Positions 7,429 through 21,189 of a DNA stretch of 64,000 bases are shown piece after piece. The notes beneath the pieces are model-generated. The model saw only the letters and a list, made by a program, of their open reading frames with translations. It was not told the DNA's origin and made no database searches. Each line of letters starts with the position of its first letter. The first letter of the stretch is position 1. The position numbers and the translations under genes are program-made. The DNA lies in assembly GCF_000023445.1 (NCBI RefSeq), contig NC_012881.1, positions 2,113,501-2,177,500 of the forward strand, written 5' to 3'. The stretch is from Maridesulfovibrio salexigens DSM 2638. Its GTDB lineage: Bacteria > Desulfobacterota > Desulfovibrionia > Desulfovibrionales > Desulfovibrionaceae.

Positions 7429-7767
7429 TTGCAAACGCTCGTAATTACTGTACACATTATCGCCTGCGTCTTCCTGATCATTTTCGTTCTTTTACAGAGC
7501 GGTAAAGAAGACATGGGCGTAATCTTCGGCGGAGGAAGTGGATCTGTTTTCGGTAGCACCGGAGCAGGTGGAGTTCTCGTAAAGATCACTGCATTTCTGG
7601 CAGCAATCTTCCTGGTAACTTCTCTCTCTTACAACTACCTCTCCGGCAACAGGATTGCTGATGAGTCCGTCATGCTGAAAGGTGACACCATCATCACTCC
7701 TGAAGTAGAAAAGCCTGCTGTCACTTTTGAAGAGCCCGCAAAGGCTCCTGCAGAAGCGACCAAATAG
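7429..7767 (+). CDS. secG: Preprotein translocase subunit SecG
   Basis: Small subunit of the SecYEG inner-membrane channel. It has two membrane segments (about residues 3-21 and 52-72) flanking the conserved loop LLQSGKEDMG and the glycine-rich FGGGSGSVFGSTG, which mark SecG. The C-terminal tail is proline- and alanine-rich, ending PAKAPAEATK. The start is TTG at 7429, supported by AAGGA ten bases upstream; no ATG serves this frame. The next gene is tRNA-Leu(GAG), the same order as secG-leuU in E. coli. Confidence 0.95.
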   Translation: MQTLVITVHIIACVFLIIFVLLQSGKEDMGVIFGGGSGSVFGSTGAGGVLVKITAFLAAIFLVTSLSYNYLSGNRIADESVMLKGDTIITPEVEKPAVTFEEPAKAPAEATK

Positions 7768-7823: not shown

Positions 7824-7910
7824 GCCGAGGTGGTGGAATTGGTAGACACGCTGTCTTGAGGGGGCAGTGGAAGAGATTCCGTGGGGGTTCGAATCCCCCC
7901 CTCGGCACCA
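7824..7910 (+). tRNA. leuU: tRNA-Leu(GAG), copy 1
   Basis: An 87-base tRNA with encoded CCA. The acceptor stem GCCGAGG pairs with CCTCGGC, the discriminator is A, and the T-arm is GGGGG-TTCGAAT-CCCCC. The anticodon arm CTGTC-TTGAGGG-GGCAG places GAG at the anticodon, and the long variable arm is that of tRNA-Leu. It follows secG by 56 bases, matching the E. coli secG-leuU order, so this is taken as the ancestral copy. It lacks the strong terminator and leader promoter seen at copies 2-4 and may be read from the secG operon. Confidence 0.97.
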
Positions 7911-7975
7911 TCTGAAAAGCAGGTGCTTCGAAAGAAAAATCCTAAATATTACGAGCAATTATTTGCAAAAACATC

Positions 7976-8004
7976 TTGCAAATAAATTCAGAGAGCGGTA
8001 TCTA
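7976..8004 (+). promoter_or_regulatory. Sigma-70-like promoter of tRNA-Leu copy 2
   Basis: A -35 box TTGCAA (7976-7981) and a -10 box TATCTA (7999-8004) are separated by exactly 17 bases. The lead-in AAAAACATCTTGC is shared with copies 3 and 4, supporting common descent of the three promoters. Confidence 0.65.
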
Positions 8005-8019
8005 TCTCCTCAACGAGAC

Positions 8020-8030
8020 GCTCTTTGAGC
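8020..8030 (+). other. Leader hairpin before tRNA-Leu copy 2
   Basis: GCTC-TTT-GAGC hairpin between the promoter and the mature tRNA, at the position of the GNRA hairpin of copies 3 and 4 but different in sequence. Confidence 0.4.
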
Positions 8031-8041
8031 ATACACCTCGG

Positions 8042-8128
8042 GCCGAGGTGGTGGAATTGGTAGACACGCTGTCTTGAGGGGGCAGTGGAAGAGATTCCGT
8101 GGGGGTTCGAATCCCCCCCTCGGCACCA
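8042..8128 (+). tRNA. tRNA-Leu(GAG), copy 2
   Basis: By eye identical to copy 1 over all 87 bases, including the encoded CCA and the GAG anticodon. It starts 132 bases after copy 1 ends, has its own promoter, and is followed within about ten bases by a strong terminator. An exact extra copy of a tRNA reading CUC/CUU codons is unusual, because the wobble G of one gene normally suffices. Confidence 0.97.
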
Positions 8129-8138
8129 CGCAATTAAG

Positions 8139-8172
8139 AAAGGGTTGAAGCGAAAGCTTCAGCCCTTTTTTG
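8139..8172 (+). terminator. Terminator of tRNA-Leu copy 2
   Basis: Stem AAGGGTTGAAGC / GCTTCAGCCCTT closed by a GAAA tetraloop and followed by TTTTTT. Flanking ACGCA and TGCGT can extend the pairing. The same hairpin follows copies 3 and 4. Confidence 0.9.
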
Positions 8173-8228
8173 CGTTTATAAAATCGAAGATGCTACTTCT
8201 CCATTCCATTATAGCTAGAGGGCACATC

Positions 8229-8696
8229 ATGTCAGATTACGACAAACCCTTTCAGCATAAGGGTTCTATTTCCAATGTTCACGTTGGAATGGAGTTTGAA
8301 TTTGCAGCTAAAGATTTTTGGGAATCTCAAGGGGTAAAACTATTCCGATCAATCAAAGTTCCTATCGGAATTGATGCCGCTAAACCAAAAGATCATGCAT
8401 TTGATTTAGGATGCACAGAACTAAAAGTTATAGTCGAATGCAAATCGCATAAATGGACTTCCGGAGGAAATGTCCCGAGTGCGAAATTGACTACTTGAAA
8501 TGAAGCTATGTATTATTTTGTTTCTGCGCCATCTGGGTTAAGAAAAATAATGTTTGTGCTACGAGATTTTTGCCCGAAGCATAATTGCACTCTAGCTGAA
8601 TACTATATCAAGACGAATTACCACCTAATCCCAAGTGATGTTGAATTTTGGGAGTATAATGACGAAACCAGAACAGCACGCAAGCTTATAACTTAA
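8229..8696 (+). pseudogene. PD-(D/E)XK nuclease-like gene with in-frame TGA
   Basis: One reading frame of 155 codons from ATG 8229 (GAGGG six bases upstream) to TAA 8696, interrupted by a single TGA at 8496-8498 (codon 90). The frame is identical on both sides of the stop. The first part holds a restriction-endonuclease-like core: Asp59 in HAFDLG, then Glu70 and Lys72 in VIVECK. The second part begins NEAMYYFVSAPSG. A TGG-to-TGA change in a Trp codon would explain the stop. It sits between tRNA-Leu copies 2 and 3. Readings are a dead nuclease, a shortened 89-residue product retaining the catalytic core, or a sequence error. The family is not recognised beyond the fold. Confidence 0.75.
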
Positions 8697-8763
8697 TTCT
8701 TTTAGTCTGATTTCATTGATAAAAACCAAATCAAATTAATTTCAAATTATTATAAAAAACATC

Positions 8764-8792
8764 TTGCCAAGGGTGTCAGATTTACGTAAACA
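8764..8792 (+). promoter_or_regulatory. Promoter of tRNA-Leu copy 3
   Basis: A -35 box TTGCCA (8764-8769) and a -10 box TAAACA (8787-8792) with a 17-base spacer, repeated exactly at copy 4. Confidence 0.65.
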
Positions 8793-8804
8793 CTTCTTCA
8801 CACG

Positions 8805-8818
8805 ACGCGGAAACGCGT
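8805..8818 (+). other. GNRA leader hairpin before tRNA-Leu copy 3
   Basis: ACGCG-GAAA-CGCGT, a perfect 5-base-pair stem with a GAAA tetraloop, twelve bases before the mature tRNA 5' end. At copy 4 the loop is GTAA, another GNRA loop. Confidence 0.6.
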
Positions 8819-8830
8819 TGTACACCTCTT

Positions 8831-8917
8831 GCCGAGGTGGTGGAACTGGTAGACACGCTGTCTTGAGGGGGCAGTGGAAGAGATTCCGTGGGGGTTCGAA
8901 TCCCCCCCTCGGCACCA
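8831..8917 (+). tRNA. tRNA-Leu(GAG), copy 3
   Basis: 87 bases with encoded CCA and the same GAG anticodon. It differs from copies 1 and 2 by one D-loop base (GGAACTGG instead of GGAATTGG) and is identical to copy 4. Stems are intact, so it should be functional. Confidence 0.97.
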
Positions 8918-8928
8918 TGCAACAGAAG

Positions 8929-8960
8929 AAGGGTTGAAGCGAAAGCTTCAACCCTTTTTT
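8929..8960 (+). terminator. Terminator of tRNA-Leu copy 3
   Basis: GGGTTGAAGC-GAAA-GCTTCAACCC, a perfect 10-base-pair stem with a GAAA loop, followed by TTTTTT. Confidence 0.93.
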
Positions 8961-8977
8961 CGTTTATCCAATATTTA

Positions 8978-9005
8978 TTTGCAATGCATTTAAACTCTAT
9001 ATAAT
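8978..9005 (+). promoter_or_regulatory. Promoter of the NTF2-like / GNAT cassette
   Basis: TTTGCA (8978-8983), 16-base spacer, TATAAT (9000-9005), directly behind the terminator of tRNA copy 3 and 24 bases before the start codon at 9030. The cargo genes therefore seem to carry their own promoter. Confidence 0.55.
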
Positions 9006-9029
9006 TCATCTAGTAAAAGAGGTGAATTA

Positions 9030-9398
9030 ATGACTCAAATAAGCCCAAGAGAAATTGTACAAGATTGGGTAGATGCTTTTAATAAGGCAGATGCAAATCT
9101 CATTTCAGAATTCTATCACGAAAATGCCGTAAATCATCAAGTTGCAGAGAATCCAGTCTCAGGCAAAGAAGCTATATTCAAAATGTTCGAGCAGGAATTT
9201 TCAGCAGCAGAAATGATATGCATAGTTGAAAACATTTTTGAAGATGGAGAGTGGGCTATTCTTGAATGGCGTGATCCGCTAGGTCTACGAGGTTGCGGAT
9301 TTTTTCATATTGTTGAGGGTAAAATTTTATTGCAACGCGGCTATTGGGATAAGCTTACCTTTTTACGCCAACACAACCTTCCGCTGCCGACAAGGTAG
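9030..9398 (+). CDS. SnoaL/NTF2-like protein
   Basis: A 122-residue protein with the alpha+beta cone pattern of the NTF2-like superfamily: an N-terminal helix (EIVQDWVDAFNKAD), a following FYHENAVNH and a GKEAIFKMFEQEF segment, then strands around WAILEWRD and GCGFFHIVEGKI. Members are small-molecule isomerases, hydrolases or binding proteins; no substrate can be named. The start is set by AGAGGTG just upstream. It is followed five bases later by the GNAT gene, forming a two-gene cargo between tRNA-Leu copies 3 and 4. Confidence 0.82.
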   Translation: MTQISPREIVQDWVDAFNKADANLISEFYHENAVNHQVAENPVSGKEAIFKMFEQEFSAAEMICIVENIFEDGEWAILEWRDPLGLRGCGFFHIVEGKILLQRGYWDKLTFLRQHNLPLPTR

Positions 9399-9403
9399 AA
9401 AAT

Positions 9404-9862
9404 ATGATTATTAGTGATGTAACTAAAACCAACTACAGTGAGCTGATTAAGCTTTGGGAAAGATCTGTCCGCGCAACTCATGATTTTCTTGATGAGAGCG
9501 ATATTGAATATTTAAGGCCACTCATTTTAGAACAGTATTTCGATGCTGTTGAATTGAAGTGCGCTAAAGACTCACACGGAGTAATTTTAGGCTTCTGTGG
9601 TGTCGCGGAAGGAAACCTTGAAATGCTTTTTGTTGATCCGCAAAGCAGAGGGCAGGGCGTTGGTTCGGCTTTATGCGCATATGCCATAGACAATTTAGCT
9701 GTCACCAAAGTTGACGTGAATGAGCAGAACCCCCAAGCTTTGGGGTTTTACGAGCATATCGGTTTTCGTATTGTTGGAAGGTCCGATCTGGATGGGCAGG
9801 GCAAGCCGTTTCCCCTTTTGCATATGGAGTTGGATTACGACAGAACACGCGGAAAAGTATAA
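9404..9862 (+). CDS. yjaB: GNAT acetyltransferase, YjaB-like
   Basis: A 152-residue GNAT protein. It aligns by eye along its length with E. coli YjaB: an N-terminal LWERSVRATHDFL, the acetyl-CoA loop VDPQSRGQGVGSAL, then VNEQNPQALGFYEHIGF and a C-terminal GKPFPLLHMEL. The substrate of YjaB proteins is not established. It begins five bases after the NTF2-like gene, so the pair is cotranscribed. It lies in the accessory tRNA-Leu array, and such stand-alone GNATs are frequent island cargo. Confidence 0.85.
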   Translation: MIISDVTKTNYSELIKLWERSVRATHDFLDESDIEYLRPLILEQYFDAVELKCAKDSHGVILGFCGVAEGNLEMLFVDPQSRGQGVGSALCAYAIDNLAVTKVDVNEQNPQALGFYEHIGFRIVGRSDLDGQGKPFPLLHMELDYDRTRGKV

Positions 9863-10123
9863 TTAATTGCAAAAAATATCACTCTCTAATTTGGCTCAGA
9901 ATTGATTTTTTAAGTATTTTGCTTGTGCTGTGTTGTGCCGAACAAGGTAACGCGTCAGATTTGAATTTTAAGCCAAATAGGTGTTGATAACTAAAAATTG
10001 ATATTTTTAGGTTTATTTCAGGGCTGTTTTCCTTTTTTTGATTGGCTAATCAAATGAGTTGTTGCTGAAATTATTGATAAAAAGATAGTCTAAACTTTTT
10101 TTGGAATTATTAACAAAAACATC
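9863..10123. other. Intergenic spacer before tRNA-Leu copy 4
   Basis: An AT-rich stretch after the GNAT gene with no open frame and no strong terminator. I see nothing functional in it until the promoter of tRNA copy 4 at 10124. Confidence 0.6.
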
Positions 10124-10152
10124 TTGCCAAGGGTGTAAGATTTACGTAAACA
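10124..10152 (+). promoter_or_regulatory. Promoter of tRNA-Leu copy 4
   Basis: TTGCCA (10124-10129), 17-base spacer, TAAACA (10147-10152), as at copy 3. Confidence 0.65.
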
Positions 10153-10164
10153 CTTCTTCACACG

Positions 10165-10178
10165 ACGCGGTAACGCGT
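10165..10178 (+). other. GNRA leader hairpin before tRNA-Leu copy 4
   Basis: ACGCG-GTAA-CGCGT. The stem is identical to that of copy 3, and the loop base change keeps the GNRA class (GUAA in RNA). Confidence 0.6.
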
Positions 10179-10190
10179 TGTACACCTCTT

Positions 10191-10277
10191 GCCGAGGTGG
10201 TGGAACTGGTAGACACGCTGTCTTGAGGGGGCAGTGGAAGAGATTCCGTGGGGGTTCGAATCCCCCCCTCGGCACCA
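10191..10277 (+). tRNA. tRNA-Leu(GAG), copy 4
   Basis: 87 bases with encoded CCA and GAG anticodon, identical to copy 3. It closes the array; downstream cargo lies on the opposite strand. Confidence 0.97.
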
Positions 10278-10290
10278 TGCAACAAAGAAA

Positions 10291-10320
10291 GGGTTGAAGC
10301 GAAAGCTTCAACCCTTTTTT
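10291..10320 (+). terminator. Terminator of tRNA-Leu copy 4
   Basis: GGGTTGAAGC-GAAA-GCTTCAACCC plus a T-run. It ends only about nine bases before the end of the opposite-strand gene at 10329. Confidence 0.93.
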
Positions 10321-10591: not shown

Positions 10592-10840
10592 TCATCTCTC
10601 CTTATTAGCTTGGGCCATGACTGAACCAGCGAGTTCCTTAGTTGAGGCGGCATACTTATCACTTTGCAAGATTTTAGATGCCTTTGTTTCCATTTCTTTT
10701 CCGGTCTGTTTTCCCGTTTTTGACTGAGAAAGCGCAGACGCTGCCATCGATTTTGCTGCCTTAGATGCTTTTGGATCTTTTAACGTCTTGCCAGCTTTTG
10801 AAGCTACTTTCTTAGATGTCTTTTTGCTGTTCTTAGCCAT
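10592..10840 (-). CDS. Small Lys/Ala/Ser-rich conserved protein
   Basis: An 82-residue, highly basic protein dominated by Lys, Ala and Ser, opening MAKNSKKTSKKVASKAGKT and containing SMAASALSQSKTGKQTGKE. The ribosome site AAGGGG is well placed. I believe similar short proteins occur in accessory regions of many Proteobacteria, but no function is known to me; the composition would suit nucleic-acid binding. Its last codons supply the ribosome site of the following broken gene. Reading runs toward the tRNA array. Confidence 0.7.
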   Translation of the reverse strand: MAKNSKKTSKKVASKAGKTLKDPKASKAAKSMAASALSQSKTGKQTGKEMETKASKILQSDKYAASTKELAGSVMAQANKER

Positions 10841-11008: not shown

Positions 11009-11698
11009 CTACAAAAGCTTATGCATATTCTTCAAAGCCTCGCGCTTGCTTAATCCTGAAAGCCGATCCTCATTTGCTTCCACATAGTCTTTCACAATTT
11101 GAGGATGAGTCCACGCATAATCGCGTAAAGCCCAGCCGATGGCTTTGCGCAGGAAAAATTCTTTTGAATCAATGTTAGGATCAATGCATTGCTGCAATAA
11201 AGTGAAATCTAGTTCATCTTTAAAGCGGAGCTGACAAAGAATGGAGGAGCGACGTTTCCACATATGGTCATTCGTGGACCATTCAAGCATTAATTCTCTC
11301 ATCCGCTTTGGTTCCGCACGCAGAATATTCCCAAGCGGTAAGGTCAAGGCATCGCAGAAATCCCACCATGCTCCGCTGACTATCATTTCTTCCACCATGG
11401 GCAGAGCTTCCCAAGTATGAAATTTTATGCAGGGCTTCCAGTCGATCAAATCTAAAGCACTGTATCGCTCTTCTCTAAATTCAGCTTTGCGCCAAAGTTC
11501 CAGCACTGCTGATTGCCACTTATCAAAATCCCAAGGTTCGAATTCTTTAAAAATACGAGTACAGCCTTTGCGCCGAAGGGGAGTGCGGATGCCATAAAAA
11601 TCCATTTCGGATTTCATATACTTTTTCATATCCGGTGCGCGTTCGGGATCAGCAAGGTCTTGCAAGGCTTCGCGGATCTTTGGAAGAATATGGGACAT
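11009..11698 (-). CDS. alkD: DNA alkylation repair protein, AlkD-like
   Basis: A 229-residue all-helical HEAT-like repeat protein of the AlkD DNA glycosylase family, which removes alkylated bases such as 3- and 7-methylpurines. Family features seen are MKKYMKSEMDFYGIRTP near the start, REERYSALDLI in the middle, and WKRRSSILCQL followed by EFFLRKAIGWALRDY, which carry the aromatic and acidic residues of the DNA-binding groove. Its ATG follows the stop codon of the upstream channel gene with no gap, so the two are cotranscribed. Confidence 0.92.
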   Translation of the reverse strand: MSHILPKIREALQDLADPERAPDMKKYMKSEMDFYGIRTPLRRKGCTRIFKEFEPWDFDKWQSAVLELWRKAEFREERYSALDLIDWKPCIKFHTWEALPMVEEMIVSGAWWDFCDALTLPLGNILRAEPKRMRELMLEWSTNDHMWKRRSSILCQLRFKDELDFTLLQQCIDPNIDSKEFFLRKAIGWALRDYAWTHPQIVKDYVEANEDRLSGLSKREALKNMHKLL

Positions 11699-20274: not shown

Positions 20275-21189
20275 ATGACCGAGAATGAAAACAATACATC
20301 CTGTAAACACCAATGGATCGACCGTTATCTGGAGTACCTTCTAATTGAGCGTGGTCTCTCGGAAAACAGCCTTAGTGGATATCTGAGTGATCTGGAGTCT
20401 TTTCAGTCTTTTCTGGAAGATAGGTCCGCGAAAATAGAAGACGCCACAAGTCAGACATTGCTGCTCTACCTTACATATCTAAGGTCAAAAGCATTGAAAT
20501 CAACCTCGCTGGCGAGGCATCTTTCGTCTTTGCGGGGATTTTTCGCGTTTTGCACGTCACGGGGATTCATTAAAGAAGACCCTGCAACTCTGCTGGAAAA
20601 CCCGAAGCTCCCCAGAAAAATTCCTGAGTTCCTATCACCGGAGGAAATCGGCCGCATGCTCGCCCTGCCCAAGCTGACCGAGAAACTTGGGTTTCGCGAT
20701 CGGACTATGCTTGAGCTGCTTTATGCAGCCGGAATGAGAGTCTCCGAATTGATCAATCTTAACATTGAAGACTTTGATCCTCAAACCGGAGTTCTCATTA
20801 TTTTCGGCAAAGGTTCCAAGGAACGGCTGGTGCCGATTCATTATGTGGCGCAAAATTTCTTAAACCAATACATTAAGGATTGGCGTCCTGCTTTTAATCC
20901 CAAGGTTAAGAACATCTTCTTAAACAGATCAGGAAAAGGACTTACCAGACAGGGTGTCTGGAAACTGATCAAGAAGTTCGCACTGGAAGCAGGTATAAAA
21001 CGTTCAATATCTCCGCACACTTTTAGGCATTCGTTTGCCACCCACTTGCTGGATGGCGGTGCGGATCTGCGTACAGTCCAGTTGCTTCTTGGTCATTCAG
21101 ACATTAATGCTACCGAAATATACACACATATTCAAGCCGGAAGATTGGTCCAGCTTCATAAACGCTTTCACCCACGTTCTGTAATGTGA
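20275..21189 (+). CDS. xerD: Tyrosine recombinase XerD
   Basis: Site-specific recombinase resolving chromosome dimers at dif, 304 residues. The N-terminal core-binding domain (YLLIERGLSENSLSGYLSDL) precedes the catalytic domain with all active residues: Arg in AAGMRVSEL, Lys in GKGSKERLVP, His and Arg in SPHTFRHSFATHLL, His in LLGHSDI and the nucleophilic Tyr in EIYTHI. ATG 20275 is preferred to TTG 20269 because GAG then has normal spacing. It is 10 bases upstream of the nucleotidyltransferase fusion gene. It is a housekeeping recombinase, not phage-linked here. Confidence 0.93.
   Translation: MTENENNTSCKHQWIDRYLEYLLIERGLSENSLSGYLSDLESFQSFLEDRSAKIEDATSQTLLLYLTYLRSKALKSTSLARHLSSLRGFFAFCTSRGFIKEDPATLLENPKLPRKIPEFLSPEEIGRMLALPKLTEKLGFRDRTMLELLYAAGMRVSELINLNIEDFDPQTGVLIIFGKGSKERLVPIHYVAQNFLNQYIKDWRPAFNPKVKNIFLNRSGKGLTRQGVWKLIKKFALEAGIKRSISPHTFRHSFATHLLDGGADLRTVQLLLGHSDINATEIYTHIQAGRLVQLHKRFHPRSVM

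Follow-up and report, generated by a model that had tools for sequence, protein, structure and literature searches.

Complete tRNA-Leu(GAG) units repeated around changing small genes behind secG in Maridesulfovibrio salexigens and its relatives

The tRNA-Leu(GAG) array

When a region next to a tRNA gene varies, the usual explanation is an integrase that copies a short end of the tRNA. In Maridesulfovibrio salexigens DSM 2638 an array of four intact tRNA-Leu(GAG) genes, with small accessory genes between them, lies behind secG, and from the second copy on the repeated piece includes upstream and terminator sequence as well. The array is located in a window of 64 kb, by which we mean the whole stretch of 64,000 nucleotides analyzed here; the genome to which it belongs (G000, or WIN, in the comparisons below) is one contig of 4.29 Mb. 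ARAGORN finds four tRNA genes in the window, all tRNA-Leu(gag) and spanning 7824-10277, in agreement with an earlier note on this DNA, made from the letters alone, which had described four such genes of 87 nt. The identities claimed there hold as well, copies 1 and 2 being identical and copies 3 and 4 differing from them by one base. Besides the four tRNAs, an Rfam scan gave nothing above the cut-off of any family. The tRNA genes and the two longest repeats are:

7824..7910, + strand, tRNA-Leu(GAG) copy 1 (ARAGORN)
8042..8128, + strand, tRNA-Leu(GAG) copy 2 (ARAGORN)
8733..8960, + strand, repeat unit 3: upstream region, leader, tRNA and terminator (228-nt repeat)
8831..8917, + strand, tRNA-Leu(GAG) copy 3 (ARAGORN)
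10093..10320, + strand, repeat unit 4: upstream region, leader, tRNA and terminator (228-nt repeat)
10191..10277, + strand, tRNA-Leu(GAG) copy 4 (ARAGORN)

Unit 3 (8733-8960) is 95% identical to 10093-10320 over 228 nt and 69% identical to 7944-8171, and direct repeats of 228 nt at 95% identity are not explicable by chance. Inside them, the 206-base repeat for which about five mismatches had been reported shows exactly five, ungapped (8755-8960 against 10115-10320). The claim that the whole transcription unit is repeated stands for copies 2-4, with 86 and 126 nt of upstream homology, and falls for copies 1 and 2, which share the 87-nt tRNA alone. The putative signals around copies 2-4 are:

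7976..8004, + strand, promoter-like TTGCAA-17-TATCTA, copy 2 (by reading; not called by the scan)
8136..8171, + strand, GAAA-loop hairpin and T run after copy 2 (by reading; + strand not called by the scan)
8764..8792, + strand, promoter-like TTGCCA-17-TAAACA, copy 3 (by reading; conserved in relatives; not called by the scan)
8926..8960, + strand, GAAA-loop hairpin and T run after copy 3 (by reading; + strand not called by the scan)
10124..10152, + strand, promoter-like TTGCCA-17-TAAACA, copy 4 (by reading; not called by the scan)
10285..10320, + strand, GAAA-loop terminator after copy 4 (called by the scan)

Both kinds of signal had been claimed for copies 2-4, and both are borne out in part. 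The -35/-10 hexamers with their 17-base spacing are readable and conserved between species, which is their support; they are too weak for the consensus promoter scan, which called none of the three pairs. GAAA-loop terminators can be read after all three copies, while on the + strand the scan called only that of copy 4. No terminator hairpin was found by reading after copy 1.

Copy number and gap turnover in the genus

The genus was sampled with 17 genomes, G000 and 16 others, and all comparisons are between species. Of the relatives that carry such arrays, three (G001, G004, and G016) are in one contig each. The genes that flank the array in the window are:

7429..7767, + strand, secG, conserved gene 5' of the array (Pfam SecG 4.7e-19)
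10592..10840, - strand, small Lys/Ala-rich open reading frame (ORF) 3' of the array (homologue 3' of the array in G012; 0 Pfam families)
11009..11698, - strand, alkD-like DNA alkylation repair gene (Pfam 7.2e-58; 3' of the array in G003 too)

The earlier note had proposed to compare the secG-alkD interval in relatives. Copy number and cargo both vary there, and a fixed array with the same cargo did not occur. While secG precedes copy 1 in all 17 genomes, the tRNA copies behind it range from one to five: five in G011, four in G000, G004, and G008, three in G001, G003, G005, G006, G014, and G016, and two in G002, G007, G009, G012, G013, and G015. The single copy of G010 stands 61 nt from a contig end, and in G002 just 383 nt separate the last copy from the end of its contig, so that the count for this genome is a lower bound. 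A tree was built from the sequence upstream of the array (approximately 2.5 kb) and has good support on 7 of its 15 inner branches. On this tree, copy number requires at least five changes and the content following copy 2 at least eight among 15 scored genomes; the scoring leaves aside G002, G010, and the outgroup, takes "no third copy" as a state and pools G014 and G016.

Of the 16 genomes that have at least two copies, 15 have an interval of 128-163 nt between the first and the second; in G002 an MFS gene is placed there. Gaps in the genus arrays reach about 0.5-1.8 kb, and short cargo-free gaps between units (202, 206, and 207 nt) exist as well. At least one gap above 400 nt is present in nine of the 17 genomes. 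Among these 12 gaps, seven contain intact ORFs; the other five either contain a gene that is broken or reduced to a remnant, or lack any ORF of at least 55 amino acids on the tRNA strand. Gaps of different species have their first 45-50 nt or so (terminator) and their last 85-125 nt or so (promoter and leader) in common and often nothing in between; cargo turns over between homologous units, also among close relatives. The second gap (2-3) of the window and that of G008, for example, match at their ends (96% over 48 nt and 94% over 98 nt) and enclose a broken nuclease-like gene in the former and an SBP_bac_3 gene in the latter; in G004 the same gap holds two other ORFs and a nuclease-like remnant (23 residues, 57%). 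The stretch 3' of the last tRNA likewise varies between species. All seven named cargo families of the genus (nuclease-like, SnoaL, GNAT, two G004 ORFs, SBP_bac_3, and MFS) lie on the tRNA strand.

The extent of the repeat is similar across the genus. Between copies 1 and 2 the match consists of the tRNA with 0-1 nt on each side in 15 of 16 genomes, and in G002 it includes 51 nt downstream. In neighbouring pairs from copy 2 on (n = 15), 41-60 nt are common downstream in all, and 83-135 nt upstream in 11 pairs; in the remaining four the upstream part is just 8-9 nt.

Mosaic-looking units

Eleven units, namely copies 3 and up of six genomes, were compared with each other. In the distal 55 columns the fourth units of G000, G004, and G008 group together at 85-89%, and the same three units have three different leader types. 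The leader of G000 unit 4 is 98% identical to the third-unit leaders of G000 and G008, that of G008 unit 4 is 98 and 96% identical to the third-unit leaders of G004 and G003, and that of G004 unit 4 is nearest to the leaders of G011 (78-85%). When the three fourth units were held together in the approximately unbiased (AU) test, the leader block rejected the grouping (p-AU 2e-5) and the distal block did not. The units thus look mosaic, which suggests, as support rather than proof, that they recombine.

Cargo genes

Three cargo genes are located in the second and third gaps of the window:

8229..8696, + strand, cargo 1: nuclease-like gene, broken (in-frame TGA at 8496-8498)
9030..9398, + strand, cargo 2a: SnoaL/NTF2-like gene (Pfam 1.1e-12; rare in the family)
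9404..9862, + strand, cargo 2b: GNAT acetyltransferase (Pfam 4.3e-12; between tRNA-Leu copies in G001, G004, and G011 too)

The NTF2-like and GNAT pair described earlier was recovered by Pfam. The ORF of cargo 1 is present, and since it has an in-frame TGA it is a broken gene; its label "nuclease-like" goes back to motif resemblance judged by eye, and Pfam gave 0 families for the first half and one match below the cut-off for the second. A homologue of the first half occurs in 2 of 285 family genomes, own included. Carrying an in-frame TGA and nearly absent from the family, this gene is perhaps a recent arrival now decaying. Known anti-phage defence was considered as a role for the cargo and rejected, PADLOC giving 0 families for five cargo protein pieces.

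The GNAT gene is intact in four genomes of the genus, with identities to the window copy of 83% (G004), 76% (G001), and 72% (G011). G008 keeps both ends of the gene around an internal deletion, and in G003 a stretch of 156 nt, 71% identical to the gap that holds GNAT in G011, is perhaps what is left of it. In the window the SnoaL gene is placed between the terminator and GNAT, whereas relatives fill that gap with GNAT alone, and no tRNA has been added. The GNAT start codon lies 59-60 nt 3' of the tRNA end in G001, G004, and G011 (L031 3371, L034 4501, and L041 4038, in tRNA orientation), which would leave little room for a promoter after the terminator, and expression by read-through is a possibility. 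The GNAT gene was rejected as a general gene of tRNA loci: it has matches in 139 of 288 family genomes, and among the best 30 GNAT loci a tRNA was present in the fetched flanks solely at the four genus-array loci.

Sister genus and wider family

The family search covered 288 genomes, with at most three candidates scored per genome, and at E 1e-18 a match was present in 203 of them. Among the 33 matching genomes listed for the sister genus (g5), 15 have two or three matches. Same-locus pairs, 13 of g5 and four of genus g41, were chosen for showing pairs. Ten of the 13 g5 gaps exceed 400 nt, several with pentapeptide-repeat, GNAT or AzlC genes, and in these ten pairs the repeat consists of the tRNA with 0-3 nt upstream and 0-49 nt downstream. 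This comparison, which takes in copy 1 as that of copies 1 and 2 in the genus does, shows no whole-unit repeat for g5.

Two g5 genomes differ in the order of two cargo blocks about the tRNA copies. G275 (L075) reads c1-[A]-c2-[X] and G276 (L069) c1-[X]-[A]-c2, with the orientation unchanged and no third tRNA between X and A in G276; block X of G276 includes about 2.7 kb without a match in G275. Some cargo is on the opposite strand in the sister genus and also in the tRNA-Asn array described below.

The SnoaL gene occurs in seven of 288 family genomes, own included. Of the six others, G253 (g5) has it less than 90 nt behind tRNA-Leu(GAG) copy 2, and no tRNA was present in the fetched 1.5-kb flanks of the other five. 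The chance of finding SnoaL beside tRNA-Leu(GAG) in two genera is roughly estimated at <1%, uncorrected for the several cargo genes tried. The GNAT in the tRNA gap of G253 is just 29% identical to the window GNAT.

Duplicated tRNA units elsewhere in the genome

Among 78 tRNA matches in G000, 15 stretches with clustered copies were read. Repeats exceeding the tRNA, about 90-415 nt long, were observed for Arg, Met, Ser(gga), Asn, Leu(cag), Glu/Gln, and Pro-Thr copies, at intervals from below 200 nt up to 13 and 16 kb and with or without cargo. Because duplicated units, some with cargo, are found elsewhere in the genome, the tRNA-Leu(GAG) array is one example of something that these genomes do more widely.

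The tRNA-Asn(gtt) array (G000:C1:2765600-2767370, L061) has three units and an SBP-like gene in its second gap (Pfam 21 bits, below the cut-off). Eleven of the 17 genus genomes were read at this locus, and ten of them have two to four copies; ARAGORN called a single one in G014. Ahead of the last copy, G000 and G011 have a gap of 1060-1075 nt with homologous SBP-like genes (61% identity), G002 has one of 661 nt with another ORF, and seven genomes have one of 215-444 nt. In the genomes read, the tRNA-Asn array behaves like that of tRNA-Leu(GAG).

Recombinases

Tyrosine recombinases (PF00589) have 11 matches in G000 and serine recombinases (PF00239) one, none of them in the array; the arrays of relatives were not searched systematically for recombinases. 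No PF00589 match, and so no candidate for an integron integrase, occurs within about 10 kb downstream of the array or upstream within the window. The PF00589 domain nearest to the array is at 20629-21138 of the window (150 bits, approximately 10 kb away). A search of the 64-kb window for the final 25 bases of the tRNA, with up to three mismatches allowed, hit the four full copies and nothing else. Hence neither an integrase at the island nor a displaced 3' fragment, the marks of an integrase-made island, was found, nor was the tRNA border with a tyrosine recombinase that is typical of tycheposons. Cargo proteins with a Pfam name include no mobility genes.

Interpretation

The array is real and changes between species. 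The best reading, which we regard as evenly poised, is that whole tRNA units were duplicated, probably for dosage, that the gaps between them are harbours of high turnover, and that the units recombine by homology. The tRNA-Leu(GAG) behind secG would have been duplicated, the repeated piece being the whole transcription unit from copy 2 on. By standard decoding rules a GAG tRNA serves CUU and CUC codons, and the extra copies were probably retained because these two make up 48% of the Leu codons of the window (CTT 33.0% and CTC 14.9% in 41 mechanical ORFs). If the promoter-like sequences function, as we infer, the later units would start and stop their own transcription, and the DNA between them could change without harm; since the units seem transcriptionally self-contained, the gaps may be places where accessory genes can come in, decay, and give way to others, part of the cargo possibly being expressed by read-through from the tRNA promoter. 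Near-identical units would recombine with each other, presumably by RecA-type host recombination, and probably with units in DNA coming in from relatives. Such events would shuffle leaders, add or remove copies and let cargo be lost, exchanged or reordered, and a dedicated recombinase would be unnecessary.

Several observations weigh against this reading. The dosage argument is a correlation within one window. The homology available often extends barely beyond the tRNA and terminator, as in the four pairs with 8-9 nt upstream and in copies 1-2 with 0-1 nt, and the GNAT identities of 83, 76, and 72% look like vertical descent rather than recent exchange. In the distal tree the grouping of G000, G004, and G008 unit 4 is supported by just 23/0. 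The AU test rejected the group G000_c3+G000_c4+G008_c3 in both blocks, the distal (p 0.016) and, unexpectedly, the leader (p 0.033); the groups for the AU test were chosen post hoc and the blocks are about 55 columns long. In phage (four records matched) and plasmid (44) searches no single place covers 80% of the unit, and the exact tRNA pattern was found in no viral contig. SnoaL was apparently added without a tRNA unit and some gaps are free of cargo, so cargo entry need not involve the units. Since, moreover, tRNA duplicates elsewhere in the genome occur with and without cargo, duplication can be separated from the gain of cargo, and gains of tRNA copies and of cargo are partly uncoupled. 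The earlier idea of a modular array that gains cargo by recombination between tRNA units therefore survives in its first half: mosaic units and the swapped blocks of the sister genus speak for recombining units, and the arrival of cargo through them is not supported in the form stated there. A bolder version, in which complete tRNA units, insulated by a promoter and a terminator of their own, are the homology modules of a cassette system with no recombinase of its own, by which the family gains, swaps, and reorders small cassettes at several tRNA loci (Leu-GAG and Asn), some of them expressed by read-through, is doubtful.

There is a rival account, which we consider less probable than the favored reading but serious: the tRNA was duplicated for dosage and genes enter the gaps as neutral passengers, by illegitimate recombination as into any intergenic space, with the homology of the units moving no cargo. 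Cargo-free gaps of 202-207 nt, SnoaL without an added tRNA, the other duplicates in the genome and the variation 3' of the last tRNA are all as this account would have them. It is harder to reconcile with units whose mosaic look suggests recombination, with the changed block order about the tRNA copies in G275 and G276, and with the occurrence in two genera of the rare SnoaL gene next to tRNA-Leu(GAG). Block order bears as well on the improbable model of a circle, made of cargo and one complete tRNA unit, that is excised between units and re-enters at any unit, both parts traveling together. Such a circle would yield tRNA-cargo-tRNA with whole-unit repeats, and two blocks do trade places next to the tRNA copies in G275/G276; yet no third tRNA stands between the blocks of G276, copy gain is uncoupled from cargo gain, and none of the phage and plasmid records mentioned above reaches 80% coverage of the unit. 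Least probable of all, and to our mind remote, is that elements targeting tRNA genes and carrying complete ones integrated serially and then decayed, leaving whole units. Genes for tRNAs are the classic integrase target (PMC4383910), and one tRNA-Ser(gga) elsewhere in the genome has an integrase match some 0.5 kb away; the array, however, has no tyrosine or serine recombinase match nearer than approximately 10 kb and no displaced 3' fragment in the window, and from copy 2 on the homology runs 83-135 nt 5' of the tRNA in 11 pairs out of 15.

Comparison with known systems

Hotspots of homologous recombination (2017, PMC5635113) are alike in their high turnover between conserved flanks and in having no recognizable mobile element; the array shows such turnover without mobility genes, which were searched genome-wide in G000. 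The signs of recombination at the flanks of these hotspots may have a counterpart in the mosaic-looking units. Its flanks are, however, repeated tRNA units, and the gaps come in series, so that units can recombine with one another. Additive flexible genomic islands of Alteromonas (PMC4119200) and at the tRNA-Lys of Methylophilaceae (PMC10872708) have variable cassettes beside one tRNA gene, as found here at the same tRNA between species of the genus. These islands repeat fragments of the 3' end, 20 bases in Methylophilaceae (PMC10872708) and 52 bases in the Leu-tRNA island of Alteromonas (PMC4119200), whereas here complete tRNA genes are repeated, mostly with upstream and terminator sequence. 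Tycheposons share cargo bordered by a tRNA gene, but they are elements of 4-200 kb (PMC10872708), in contrast to gaps of about 0.5-1.8 kb and an array with no tyrosine recombinase match.

Integron cassette arrays (PMC4119200) also hold small exchangeable cargo in series between repeats, and the seven cargo families named for the genus gaps are all on the tRNA strand; the differences are that the array has no integrase match and its repeat is a tRNA gene. In tandem tRNA duplication (Ayan et al., 2020, PMC7661048) extra copies likewise arise by duplication under translational demand, but the duplications measure 45-290 kb, whereas here they are unit-sized and other genes lie between. Literature on tRNA islands, tycheposons, additive islands, Desulfovibrio islands, duplicated tRNAs with genes between them, and flanking recombination, covered in part and with most subscription journals outside coverage, contained no arrays of exchangeable cargo between whole tRNA units, and the accessible part of the D. 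piezophilus genome paper, with its seven islands, mentions no such array.

What sets the present case apart is that the repeated frame is made of intact tRNA genes, in most instances along with the sequence upstream of them and their terminator. Within a single genus this is so at two tRNA loci, a sister genus has tRNA pairs around cargo, and the array of G000 is without integrase. If exchange through units does occur, it would explain the turnover of small genes at tRNA loci without mobile elements and would link tRNA copy number to gene gain, in a way testable in culturable sulfate reducers.

Distant tRNA copies

Three other stretches of G000 include one copy far from its fellows. Three tRNA-Leu(cag) genes (G000:C1:913669-927185, L054), one of them 13 kb off, have 85-96% repeats beyond the tRNA and no tyrosine or serine recombinase match between the copies. 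Of three tRNA-Ser(gga) genes (G000:C1:2316432-2362014, L058 and L059) one is 45 kb off. A tyrosine recombinase match stands some 0.5 kb away from this outlying copy, which may belong to an ordinary integrase island. Three tRNA-Met(cat) genes (G000:C1:2779584-2796359, L062), one of them 16 kb off, show 92-96% repeats of 92-147 nt.

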